This document shows positions 1 to 10,712 of a DNA stretch of 12,874 nt, one piece after another. Origin of the DNA: a bacterium (GTDB lineage Bacteria; JAMCPX01); assembly GCA_021792615.1 (NCBI GenBank), contig JAJYUJ010000051.1, forward strand, positions 1-12,874, read 5' to 3'. The notes beneath the pieces were generated by a model that had not been told where the DNA came from, did not search any database, and was given only the letters and a program-made list of their open reading frames with translations. Each line of letters opens with the position of its first letter. The stretch's first letter is position 1. Both the position numbers and the translations under genes were made by a program.

Positions 1-234
1 ACAAGCGATCCTCGGCGTTCAGAACTTGAAAAGCTTGTCAAAGCAGCCGGTCTCTGGGAGCAGTTTTCAAAACTTGATACAGGTGAGTTATTAAGGTTTA
101 TGGAATCCGATAATGAAAACAAGGCATTAATTGAAAAAATAAAACAGTTCACAAACAAAGAAGAAAGCATAACAGTAAACAGACCAAAGGTGTTGAAGAA
201 AGAAGGAGGGGGCGAGAATGTTAAAAGCAGATAA
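1..234 (+). CDS. C-terminal fragment of an unrecognised protein (5' end outside window)
   Basis: Frame 1 is open from the first base to a TAA at 232-234 and gives the last 77 residues of a protein whose start lies to the left. The fragment is hydrophilic and probably helical, with many Lys, Glu and Asn residues. It includes a stretch reading GLWEQFSKLDTGELLRFME and ends in a basic, Gly-rich tail. I see no catalytic motif, membrane segment or recognisable domain. The frame overlaps the next gene (ATG at 218) by 17 nt, and the ribosome binding site of that gene lies inside this frame, so the two are very likely co-transcribed and translationally coupled. Family unknown. It is probably a partner of the nuclease-fold protein that follows, judging only from position. 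Confidence 0.6.
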   Translation, partial: TSDPRRSELEKLVKAAGLWEQFSKLDTGELLRFMESDNENKALIEKIKQFTNKEESITVNRPKVLKKEGGGENVKSR

Positions 235-1030
235 ACATGGTAAATTCCCTTTAGAAGCTGATATAGAAGATGTTCTTACATCCGTTGTTTTTGGATCGTT
301 ATGTTATCTTGATGATACAGAGAATTCTATTGGTCTATGCTTACTCAAGGATTTTCTTGTAAAAGCATGGTTCGATTGTAAGGGTAAGGAGAATAAAACA
401 TTTATTAAAATAGTTGGAGAGATTCAAAGTGTTGAATACAAATTCTGGCCAGCCCTTGGTGGGAAAGAGCCTGACCTTATTATTGAATGTCATGGTAATA
501 ATAGCCAGCAATGGACACTGATAATAGAAGCAAAGTACGGAGCACCAAAAAGTGGAACTGGTGATGAATCTGAAAGCGATTCCGATAATTCTGATGGAGA
601 ATCTACAGAATATTATGATCAACTTGCAGATTATTATAGCTTTCAGAAAAAGAAACATGCTGAAGGTGAATTATATCTTCTTTATGTCACGCATCATACA
701 ACATTTCCAACAAATGATATGAAATCATCTTTAGATAAACTAAACAAACAGAATGATCATAATGCAGATGATAGGCTTGGCTGGTTACCATGGAGAGAAC
801 TTTCTCCTCTAATTCAAGAGGAGATTGATAAAGGGCGTAACAATGAACATAGAGGAAAGGCTGCTCTCCTTGAAGATTTATATGCGTATCTTACAAAACG
901 TGGACTTGCGCCTTTCACAGGAGAATGGGGAAGCAGGATGGGAGTACAACTCCAGCCATTACCTAAAAAACCAGATATAATATTTTATGCAAACATGGAA
1001 AACAATAAAGGAGGTCAAAATGGAAGATAA
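218..1030 (+). CDS. PD-(D/E)XK nuclease-superfamily protein
   Basis: A 270-residue protein with the layout of a PD-(D/E)XK (restriction-endonuclease-like) fold. An N-terminal helix carries Glu13/Glu17. Then EPDLIIE gives Asp86, and LIIEAKYG gives the E-x-K pair Glu104/Lys106. A YYDQLADYY helix (around 132-140, Gln135) resembles the Q motif seen after the core in this superfamily. Between Lys106 and that helix lies an acidic Ser/Asp/Glu-rich stretch (about 112-131), probably a flexible loop. The start is supported by a strong GGAGG-type Shine-Dalgarno sequence about 8 nt upstream. The gene overlaps the preceding frame by 17 nt and the following gene by 11 nt. In the superfamily these residues bind metal and cut DNA or RNA; the substrate here cannot be read from sequence. 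A restriction or defence role is an inference from the fold, AT-rich composition and unknown partners. No helicase or methylase is visible in the window. Confidence 0.72.
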   Translation: MLKADKHGKFPLEADIEDVLTSVVFGSLCYLDDTENSIGLCLLKDFLVKAWFDCKGKENKTFIKIVGEIQSVEYKFWPALGGKEPDLIIECHGNNSQQWTLIIEAKYGAPKSGTGDESESDSDNSDGESTEYYDQLADYYSFQKKKHAEGELYLLYVTHHTTFPTNDMKSSLDKLNKQNDHNADDRLGWLPWRELSPLIQEEIDKGRNNEHRGKAALLEDLYAYLTKRGLAPFTGEWGSRMGVQLQPLPKKPDIIFYANMENNKGGQNGR

Positions 1031-1664
1031 AAATAATACAACGAGAACGGCTTCAGATGAACAAGAGCACATGATAAATGTTTTTGAATGGGTTCAGGGA
1101 ATATACGACGAAGCTAAAAAACTTTTAGAGGATACTGTAAAATACTTTCAAGATGGCAAAAGAATTCTTATGGTAAAAAATCCACCTATAGAGGAGTTAG
1201 GCGGTGGTTGTCCTTATACTTATATGCTTGCACAATACCTTGCTATAGGGTCAGACAAAATTGAAACGGACAAGATTGGCGTAATAGGTGTAAGCTTGCT
1301 TGATAAAAACAATAAGCCTTTCCCTCGTATAGTATTGGGAAGTATAAAACTTAAAGAAAGTATGAATATAGAAACTTGGCAGAAGAAAAAAAAGAGCGGA
1401 TGGCGTGCACAATATTTATTGTTAGATTGTATCCATAGCGAAAAGTTTGACGAGAAAAATGTGTTTATTAAGCCTTCCAAAATAGAAGGAACGGTATGCG
1501 GTCATAAAGTTGCTTCAGAATCCTTTACCCATGTGCCACTTGCGAGCATTAACAGTCTTGATACTCTCCATTGTCTCCTTGATAAGGCCACACCATTCTT
1601 TCAAAAAGGTGAAGAAACAGATGATCTAAAGGTAAAAATCACCGAGCTACGAGAGATAAAGTGA
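1020..1664 (+). CDS. Hypothetical protein, third gene of the nuclease operon
   Basis: A 214-residue protein that I do not recognise. The ATG at 1020 is preferred over an in-frame ATG at 987 because AAAGGAGG lies at 1007-1014 with 5 nt spacing; this makes the gene overlap the nuclease gene by 11 nt. It is soluble, with no signal peptide or membrane helix. Visible parts are a polar N-terminus, a helix rich in Glu and Lys (about 15-45), a Gly-rich turn (GGGCPYTYMLAQYLAIG, about 64-80), alternating hydrophobic strands (IGVIGVSLLD, FPRIVLGSIKL), a Lys-run near WQKKKKSGWRAQYLLLDCIH, and a mixed C-terminal part. Several Cys and His residues occur but do not form a clear zinc motif. Tight coupling to the nuclease suggests it is a partner, immunity or specificity factor; that is inference only. 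Confidence 0.6.
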   Translation: MEDKNNTTRTASDEQEHMINVFEWVQGIYDEAKKLLEDTVKYFQDGKRILMVKNPPIEELGGGCPYTYMLAQYLAIGSDKIETDKIGVIGVSLLDKNNKPFPRIVLGSIKLKESMNIETWQKKKKSGWRAQYLLLDCIHSEKFDEKNVFIKPSKIEGTVCGHKVASESFTHVPLASINSLDTLHCLLDKATPFFQKGEETDDLKVKITELREIK

Positions 1665-1670: not shown

Positions 1671-1778
1671 AATTGAGGAGAGGCATTAAACAGCTTAAGT
1701 CTAAAAGATCAAATTAAACCAAACTGACATACCTCTGTCAATTGCGTGTGATAACCTCGCAAGAAAGGAGGAAGTCAG

Positions 1779-1994
1779 ATGTCATTAAAACAAAAGGTAA
1801 TCTTGACATGCATATTCCCATTGTTGTTTTCTTCATATGCCACAATCAAGGAGAATGTTAAGAATGATGATGTATTATTAAAATCGGAAAGAAACGGGGT
1901 CACGTCTACACATTACACATCCATAGAAAATATGAGAGGAATAGAGGTTAGCCCCTGCATTGGACAGGTTGAAATCATACCGCCCTCGACCTAA
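1779..1994 (+). CDS. Small putative exported peptide, possibly a truncated gene
   Basis: A 71-residue ORF with a strong Shine-Dalgarno (AAAGGAGG at 1764-1771, 7 nt before the ATG). The N-terminus looks like a signal peptide: basic MSLKQK, then a hydrophobic run ILTCIFPLLFSSYA, with a possible signal peptidase I site after SSYA. The mature part would be only about 50 residues. The last roughly 25 residues are encoded by a dispersed repeat that recurs at 2525-2583, so the reading frame may be the 5' remnant of a longer secreted-protein gene whose end was replaced. No homologous family is recognised. The good ribosome binding site argues that it is, or was, translated. Confidence 0.4.
   Translation: MSLKQKVILTCIFPLLFSSYATIKENVKNDDVLLKSERNGVTSTHYTSIENMRGIEVSPCIGQVEIIPPST
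1916..1984 (+). repeat. Dispersed repeat, copy 1
   Basis: Two blocks match copy 2 (2525-2583) in the same order and orientation. CACATCCATAG lies at 1916-1926. A 27-bp block at 1958-1984 contains ATTGGACAGGTTGAAATCAT and differs from copy 2 by one base. The middle is less alike and about 10 nt longer in this copy. The block lies inside the 3' part of the small ORF 1779-1994. Confidence 0.65.
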
Positions 1995-2195: not shown

Positions 2196-2522
2196 TTATT
2201 TGTCCCAGATGAATCCTATCTTTCGATGTTTGGATTCAGGCTGAACCATGAGAGTTTCGATAGCAATTACAAGTGATCTTATTGCCTCATCGTGTGATCC
2301 TACTTTCCGCTCAAGTTCTGCGAGTTTATCTGAGAATTCTTTGTTCATTAAAAGCATCTCACGAAGCTTAATAAAGGCACGCACTACATAAAGGCTAACG
2401 TCTATAGCACGCTTGGTATTTAATATACTTGCTACCATTATGACACCATGTTCTGTAAAAGCATATGGTAGTGCAGTAGAAAATCTCAGATTTGAAAGGT
2501 GGTCACAAATTGTGACCACCTT
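2196..2522 (-). pseudogene. ORF6N-domain protein, N-terminally truncated remnant
   Basis: About 107 residues matching the C-terminal half of ORF6N (phage antirepressor/KilA-N-like) proteins: LPYAFTEHGVIMVASILN, then a VSLYVVRAFIKLREML helix, a coiled-coil-like ELERKV region, and an ending near HRKIGF. Full-length relatives usually have about 90 more N-terminal residues holding the rest of the DNA-binding ORF6N domain. Here the family-like sequence begins at KVVTICDHL, and the frame upstream (LPPVYYGCA..., then TGA at 2574-2576) does not look like the family. The only in-frame start near the edge is a GTG at 2517-2519 without a Shine-Dalgarno, so a functional product is doubtful. Such genes are commonly found on prophages and other mobile elements. 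It is the only minus-strand gene in the window. Confidence 0.7.
2496..2522. repeat. 27-bp perfect palindrome at the broken end of the ORF6N remnant
   Basis: Arms AAGGTGGTCACAA (2496-2508) and TTGTGACCACCTT (2510-2522) are perfectly complementary around one central base. On the minus strand it encodes the KVVTICDHL segment. It could be an operator-like site, a recombination or hairpin breakpoint, or partly a by-product of the conserved amino acids. Confidence 0.75.
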
Positions 2523-2524
2523 GG

Positions 2525-2583
2525 CACATCCATAGTAGACCGGGGGCAGCCCCGGACATTGGACAGGTTGAAATCATAACGCC
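2525..2583 (+). repeat. Dispersed repeat, copy 2
   Basis: Matches copy 1 at CACATCCATAG (2525-2535) and at the 27-bp block 2557-2583 (one mismatch). Between these blocks is a perfect hairpin CCGGGG-GCAG-CCCCGG (2540-2555) that copy 1 has largely lost. Its left edge abuts the point where ORF6N homology stops. Confidence 0.65.
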
Positions 2584-6154: not shown

Positions 6155-6519
6155 GGGCATTGTACAGCGTAGACATTCTTGATGACTATGAAGAAGATTC
6201 TGTACGGCTGTTTGCAGGGAGAAACAAGTGGGATCAGGTAACCTTGAACAAGATGCTGGGGATTGTGTCAAAACTTGGTACCATAGATAATTTCATAACG
6301 AAACATCTTAAAAACTGGACTATTGCAAGAATCGCGATCATCGATAAGAGCATATTGAGGCTTGCAATATACGAGCTCATGTTCGAAGCCCAGACACCGA
6401 TGAAAGTCATTATCAACGAAGCAGTGGAGATAGCGAAGAAATACGGCACCAAAGACTCCTTTACTTTTATAAATGCAGTGCTTGATACCATAGCAAAAGA
6501 GATCGGCAGGACAGCGTGA
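6121..6519 (+). CDS. nusB: Transcription antitermination factor NusB
   Basis: A 132-residue all-helical protein that with NusE (S10) binds boxA RNA in rRNA antitermination. It has the typical basic N-terminus (MGKREEREALLRALYSVDI) and the conserved C-terminal half: IARIAIIDKSILRLAIYELMF, TPMKVIINEAVEIAKKYG and FINAVLDTIAKEI. The length is normal. The start lies inside the end of ribH (34-nt overlap); the ribH-nusB order is common in proteobacteria. Its stop overlaps the next start as GTGA. Confidence 0.93.
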   Translation: MGKREEREALLRALYSVDILDDYEEDSVRLFAGRNKWDQVTLNKMLGIVSKLGTIDNFITKHLKNWTIARIAIIDKSILRLAIYELMFEAQTPMKVIINEAVEIAKKYGTKDSFTFINAVLDTIAKEIGRTA

Positions 6520-7070
6520 GTCTTGAGATAAATCTCGATACATCGTTCGATAGAATTTTTCACGAGCCGATCGTACTTTTGCTGTTCGATGAACGGCTTC
6601 CTCTGCACGGGTATCCGGGCATCGTAGACTGGGAACTCTGCGGCGAACTCTCGAGGATGATAGCCGAAAGAAAATTCGAGGGGAAGGAAAAAGCCAGGAT
6701 GATCCTCTATTTGAGAAGTTCCTGTCGTCATGGAAGGAAGGTGCTGGTGTACGGGCTTGGGAAAAAAAACACGTTGACATCGAATAAATTATCGATGCTG
6801 ACGGAAGATCTTTTAGTTGCACTTTCCAATTTATCTTTATACAATGTGGTACACGTTATGCCCTCTCTGTACGATCTCAACTCCGATGTTCAGAGTTTGC
6901 TGGCGGGTGCTGCATACACCATTCTTAAATTTACGTCCGCGGAGGACAGAGAATACAGGTTCTGGCTGATGTGGGACGGTGTATCGCGATCCGATATTGT
7001 TAATTCATTTAAGGGTGCAACCGGTATCTTGCCGGATGCCCCTTTGTCTATAATAGAAAAGGAGGATTGA
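6516..7070 (+). CDS. Stand-alone M17 leucyl aminopeptidase N-terminal-like protein
   Basis: A 184-residue protein starting with GTG at 6516, overlapping the nusB stop in GTGA. The pattern LPLHGYPGIVDWELCGELSRMI followed by a Lys-rich stretch, KVLVYGLG, and an MLTEDLLVALSNL helix resembles the macro-like N-terminal domain of leucyl aminopeptidases (M17) and short relatives found in Deltaproteobacteria. The C-terminal M17 catalytic domain, with its NTDAEGR-type metal site, is absent, so it should not be a peptidase. The C-terminus is a variable stretch that ends 3 nt before the fabH-like gene and carries that gene's Shine-Dalgarno. Function unknown; a regulatory or nucleotide-type ligand role is speculative. 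The family assignment is by pattern recall. Confidence 0.6.
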   Translation: MSLEINLDTSFDRIFHEPIVLLLFDERLPLHGYPGIVDWELCGELSRMIAERKFEGKEKARMILYLRSSCRHGRKVLVYGLGKKNTLTSNKLSMLTEDLLVALSNLSLYNVVHVMPSLYDLNSDVQSLLAGAAYTILKFTSAEDREYRFWLMWDGVSRSDIVNSFKGATGILPDAPLSIIEKED

Positions 7071-10468: not shown

Positions 10469-10712
10469 TCCGTACGTCTCTAAAAATATATAACCAGAGG
10501 AATATGCATTTTAATGCAAATTTTATTCAACAAATCCCCATGTTTCCCTCCCCCTTGACGGGGAAGGGCGAGGGTGGGGGTGATAAGATGCCGTTTTCAC
10601 CCTCCCCTTTATCCCCTCCCGTCAAGGGAGGGGATACTTTAGGATCCCACACAACTTGTCCGGAGAGCCTGTTCCTTTGGTACTTGCTGTGCGGAATATA
10701 TAAAGGATCGAA
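10469..10712. other. 244-nt gene-free gap between the long operon and the glycan genes
   Basis: It contains a small AT-rich inverted repeat TGCATT-TT-AATGCA (10505-10518) and the large GC-rich inverted repeat at 10546-10633. An apparent ORF across it is low-complexity Pro/Ser/Gly sequence from the repeat and is not a gene. A ribosome binding site for the next gene lies at the end. Confidence 0.6.
10546..10633. repeat. GC-rich imperfect inverted-repeat element
   Basis: Arms of about 37 nt (10546-10583 and 10597-10633) are imperfectly complementary around a 13-nt spacer. Both contain a CCCTTGACGGG-like core, and as RNA they would fold into a long G/C stem. It looks like a dispersed palindromic intergenic repeat of the kind common in many deltaproteobacterial genomes. 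With no T-run, it is not a canonical terminator, but a strong stem at the end of a ten-gene operon could protect 3' ends or slow transcription. Confidence 0.7.

Follow-up and report, generated by a model that had tools for sequence, protein, structure and literature searches.

An inserted five-gene operon with an AAA+ ATPase, a WYL-type regulator and a RecB-like nuclease that fits no named system

The three overlapping genes at the left edge of the window (the whole stretch of DNA analysed, 12,874 nucleotides, which is the entire contig C17 of genome G000) are the tail of a five-gene operon with the order AAA+ ATPase, WYL regulator, RecB-like nuclease, ORF2 and ORF3. It is a real and coherent operon, recently inserted in one bacterium, and it fits no named system. 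We give an even chance to the explanation that this is a WYL-repressed accessory nuclease operon, inducible by phage or DNA damage, and the same even chance to its having been horizontally acquired as an accessory element, which is part of that explanation. The bolder proposal is an undescribed defence system: under the control of a WYL repressor, an AAA+ ATPase would act together with two PD-(D/E)XK nucleases of different kinds, a RecB-like one of the Fe-S type and a restriction-like one, and with the new family ORF3. We put this forward tentatively. The features are as follows (window positions unless C44 or L004 is named).

C44:3954-3969: palindrome TGACACACCTCTGTCA upstream of the AAA gene, 56 nt before its start, over CTGACA-17-TATGTT
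L004:4026-5822, on C44: CDC48-like AAA+ ATPase, 598 aa, 116 nt before the WYL gene
L004:5939-6943, on C44: HTH-WYL-WCX regulator, 334 aa, 12 nt before the nuclease gene
1-234, plus strand: 3' end of the RecB/Cas4-like PD-(D/E)XK nuclease gene, 407 aa, with the remainder on C44 (L004:6956-8071)
218-1030, plus strand: ORF2, 270 aa, probable second PD-(D/E)XK nuclease (D86, E104, K106)
1020-1664, plus strand: ORF3, 214 aa, no homologue found in our searches, strong Shine-Dalgarno AAAGGAGGTCAAA-ATG
1725-1740, plus strand: palindrome TGACATACCTCTGTCA, probable second WYL operator, over the -35 CTGACA (1724-1729), 17 bp before TGTGAT (1747-1752)
1779-1994, plus strand: ORF4, 71 aa, hydrophobic N-terminus, strong Shine-Dalgarno AAGAAAGGAGG, behind the second palindrome
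1950-1984, plus strand: direct repeat of ~35 nt, copy 1, 92% match to copy 2
2548-2583, plus strand: direct repeat, copy 2, 92% match to copy 1
2196-2519, minus strand: N-terminally truncated remnant like ORF6N and phage anti-repressors (PADLOC, PHROG)
1-2642, no strand: in-window part of the 6.7-kb insertion, with homology to the empty site resuming at 2643 (blastn: G005, G002, G001, G004)

The start of the window is a contig end, and its first 126 nt are an exact overlap with the end of contig C44; when the two are joined, a single open frame of 407 aa runs across the overlap. The last 7 nt of C44 (L006:8072-8078) read AGATCGG, exactly where the match to the window stops, which we take to be the start of the Illumina adapter, so that this end of C44 is apparently an adapter remnant and an assembly artefact. 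The join is independently backed by synteny, since in relatives the C44 genes to the left of the operon directly precede ribD, and ribD forms the right side of the window. The extension to the left recovered the first gene, which the earlier note, made from the window's sequence, had called unknown; it is not a housekeeping gene, and its product is a RecB-like PD-(D/E)XK nuclease of the PDDEXK_1 family. The gene edges proposed there (first gene ending at 234, ORF2 at 218-1030, ORF3 at 1020-1664) are correct, as are the overlaps of 17 nt (218-234) and 11 nt (1020-1030), and the AT-richness holds as well (GC of 36% in ORF2 and ORF3 vs 48-49% in ribD, ribBA and fabH). The three-gene operon was right in its overlapping genes but incomplete, as two further genes lie upstream on C44, and the RecB-like nuclease, WYL and AAA+ genes are at least as central to it as ORF2. 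A single transcript would be in keeping with the order of the genes, their overlaps and their ribosome-binding sites; the 116-nt gap between the AAA gene and the WYL gene counts against the best explanation.

The product of the first gene matches Pfam PDDEXK_1 (PF12705) well above the cut-off (E 6.9e-30, 105 bits vs 22). Its motifs are GYIDRLD (137-143), HDYKTS (153-158) and QLALY (172-176), so that the catalytic D...D-x-K and Q-x-x-x-Y motifs are present, together with the four cysteines of the Fe-S pattern (Cys 15/240/243/249). Judged by these motifs, the protein is an Fe-S-type RecB/Cas4-like PD-(D/E)XK nuclease with a putative Fe-S cluster. Motifs, cysteine pattern and nearly full length are shared with PDDEXK_1 nucleases that include phage Cas4-family exonucleases, such as that of a Gordonia phage at 23% identity. 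The best NCBIfam matches were AddB and Cas4, both far under cut-off; a CRISPR Cas4 identity was rejected (TIGR00372, 31.6 bits vs a cut-off of 65), and unlike Cas4 the gene is not beside cas1/cas2 and lies within a WYL/AAA+ operon. Elsewhere, plasmids, phages and genomes contain matches to the RecB-like protein at the level of the general domain.

In ORF2, the Asp86/Glu104/Lys106 triad named earlier is present (EPD86...E104-A-K106, followed by a YYDQLADYY motif), which gives the PD-(D/E)XK form D...ExK with QLADYY downstream. ORF2 is a probable PD-(D/E)XK nuclease, with modest family support: Pfam PDDEXK_4 stays under its gathering score (E 0.014, 15.7 bits vs 22.3), and PADLOC PDC-M15A matches the N-terminal part weakly (E 5e-6). 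This last likeness was not taken as membership in PDC-M15, as the weak match is to ORF2 only and the other operon proteins have none. An apparent relative in a Segatella plasmid locus (L012, with AAA, HAD, PDDEXK_4 and WYL genes) was dropped since 93 of 500 shuffles scored as well as the match of ORF2 to its nuclease (E 0.007). ORF3 had no match in Pfam, PADLOC, NCBIfam or PHROGs, and the single-sequence structure model of ORF2 (mean pLDDT 34) is, like that of ORF3 (34-36 over the two), of no usable confidence. No homologue of ORF2 or ORF3 was found in ~1,070 genomes plus plasmids, phages and viral contigs, a weak result because the search had no positive control; the genomes comprised nine of the phylum, 28 and 245 of two other phyla, 397 of Campylobacterota and 395 of the phylum of the Bacteroidetes bacterium G014. 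The lack of an ORF3 homologue, by which conservation of the gene set might be seen, and the Pfam score of ORF2 under the cut-off both count against the best explanation.

The AAA+ ATPase carries a Walker A GIPGTGKT, a Walker B of the form LLLNEAD and the arginine pair RRF. It shares with IetA, the AAA+ ATPase of IetAS, a core of the broad CDC48-like kind, but membership was rejected, as the IetA profile scores 95.9 bits vs a cut-off of 510, the N-terminal half differs and no IetS protease partner was found in the operon. Many Campylobacterota have relatives of near full length, ~30-42% identical, frequently with nuo genes next to them; these nearest relatives are a chromosomal gene without a WYL partner and do not suggest defence, which also counts against the best explanation. 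Outside Campylobacterota, the relatives frequently adjoin WYL genes. AAA+/WYL pairs of Bacteroidales and Neomarinimicrobiota (L057, L070, L075, L083, L091) resemble ours in having a related AAA+ gene beside a WYL gene, but they have no RecB-like, ORF2 or ORF3 homologues, and some adjoin RtcB genes. A scan of genome contigs with an AAA alignment likewise found AAA relatives and no RecB, ORF2 or ORF3 neighbours. As separate observations, genes for an uncharacterised AAA+ ATPase of the CDC48-like kind, with NEAD in its Walker B, are common on Campylobacterota chromosomes close to the nuo operon (L016, L025, L027, L034, L054), and the Bacteroidales relatives in L070, L084 and L086 have WYL and RtcB RNA-ligase genes nearby, a hint that the AAA/WYL pair is also associated with RNA-repair operons.

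The regulator shows Pfam HTH_11 (1.1e-6), WYL (3e-18) and WCX (3.9e-19) domains. The palindrome TGACAYACCTCTGTCA has two matches at up to one mismatch in the 2.54-Mb assembly, one before the AAA gene and one after ORF3, while the reversed pattern used as a control has none and simple arithmetic for a pattern with 15 fixed bases gives a chance expectation of ~0.005. The second copy lies 60 nt past the ORF3 stop and 38 nt ahead of ORF4, a third copy precedes the AAA homologue in the congener G005, and in all three CTGACA stands 17 bp from a -10-like hexamer. The two sites of G000 differ outside the palindrome, so they are not a recent duplication. One-mismatch matches in G006 and in G005:C106 were rejected as operators, both being inside coding genes. 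The palindrome is likely the WYL operator, and WYL regulation of the operon is strongly suggested. ORF4, whose 3' end runs into the repeat at 1950-1984, may be a truncated gene and a truncated member of the WYL regulon.

CapW and BrxR are known as repressors of defence operons, CBASS and BREX among them, that act via palindromic promoter sites (PMC9122588, PMC9122601). The present operon shares with theirs an HTH-WYL-WCX regulator within a defence-like set, a palindromic site at the promoter and patchy, accessory occurrence. It differs in having no CBASS or BREX core genes, its effectors being the RecB-like nuclease, ORF2, ORF3 and the AAA+ ATPase, and in the position of the palindrome, which lies over the -35, while CapW sites overlap the -10 and the BrxR site is downstream of the -10.

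To hypothesize, the WYL protein would bind the palindrome over the -35 box and keep the operon off, until phage infection or DNA damage yields a ligand that would release it (PafBC and DriD suggest fragments of nucleic acid, by analogy). The AAA+ ATPase would then remodel or load a complex, and invading DNA would be degraded by ORF2 and the RecB-like nuclease. What the sequence shows directly is the genes and how they join, the motifs, the insertion and the positions of the two palindromes; that the palindromes act as operators, what the inducer is, that a complex forms, that DNA is the target and that the operon serves defence are all points that we infer.

The insertion in G000 is ~6.7 kb long, from C44:3873 to window position 2642. 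The empty site is seen in G005, G002, G001 and G004, where ribD comes directly after the lipoprotein gene; in G004 the flanks are 93-95% identical and ~24 nt separate the two genes. Searches of eight relatives gave no RecB-like, ORF2 or ORF3 gene, an absence that is not certain in the five whose assemblies are incomplete (80-87%). In G005, a congener, contig C381 (L112:1-876) breaks off inside an AAA gene that is 87% identical and likewise has the palindrome at its promoter; as this fragment is in a different neighbourhood, at least the AAA gene has occupied two sites in the genus. By eye, the fragment adjoins a possible PIN-type toxin-antitoxin pair.

The main rival, which we hold to be improbable though by less than the others, is a DNA-damage-response or recombination-repair operon, in which the WYL protein would sense single-stranded DNA and induce the AAA+ ATPase and a RecB-like exonuclease that process ends of the cell's own DNA. 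The WYL regulators PafBC, DriD and SiwR govern DNA-damage responses (PMC11804915, PMC12340889, PMC10693628). RecB/AddB/Cas4-type nucleases act in repair, with AddB and Cas4 the best NCBIfam matches here, far under cut-off, and Campylobacterota carry the AAA relative as a regular gene of the chromosome. The operon, however, was inserted in one lineage and is missing from this site in close relatives, and core repair genes are seldom so patchy; moreover, ORF2 resembles restriction-type nucleases.

The same insertion holds the ORF6N anti-repressor remnant reported earlier, which is real (PADLOC PDC-S05, E 3.5e-21, with the first ~68 profile positions absent; PHROG anti-repressor, E 3.4e-6), as are the nearby repeats, and PHROG exonuclease families match the RecB-like protein (E 1.1e-29), as does the Gordonia phage exonuclease. 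This would suit a remnant of a phage or mobile element, whose genes served the element's own replication, recombination or anti-defence. Such an origin seems rather unlikely to us, as the insertion showed no recombinase, integrase, structural, replication or complete mobile-element gene, searches of phages, plasmids and viral contigs gave no close relatives, and the promoter/operator arrangement is intact. Least likely, and very doubtful, is a chance assemblage from successive insertions, with at most WYL, RecB, ORF2 and ORF3 functional together: the AAA gene stands 116 nt apart and is found alone elsewhere, and ORF4 and ORF6N look like debris, but the genes overlap with strong ribosome-binding sites and the operator pair marks both ends of the block.

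The WYL-repressed accessory nuclease operon is the reading that we prefer, and the earlier proposal of an accessory nuclease operon outside any named system gains from the insertion absent in relatives, the second nuclease, the AAA+ ATPase and the WYL regulator, although its defence role is still an inference. What speaks for defence is the set of genes, their patchy occurrence and the kind of regulator, and none of these is proof; moreover, none of the genes is a member of a system with demonstrated phage resistance. The literature search, with most subscription papers and preprints outside its scope, found no description of the gene set. With one complete operon copy and one AAA fragment in a congener, the weight of the case is limited. 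If the operon serves defence, it provides a new effector set for WYL-controlled immune operons and a concrete, testable operator, and ORF3 adds an orphan protein from a sparsely sampled phylum; if it serves the DNA-damage response, WYL-controlled repair is extended to that phylum.

Elsewhere in the window, an ORF of 184 aa between nusB and fabH (6516-7070) looks by eye like a stand-alone N-terminal domain of leucyl aminopeptidase, and an intergenic repeat at 10490-10660 gives, on either strand, a proline/glycine-rich ORF that is spurious.
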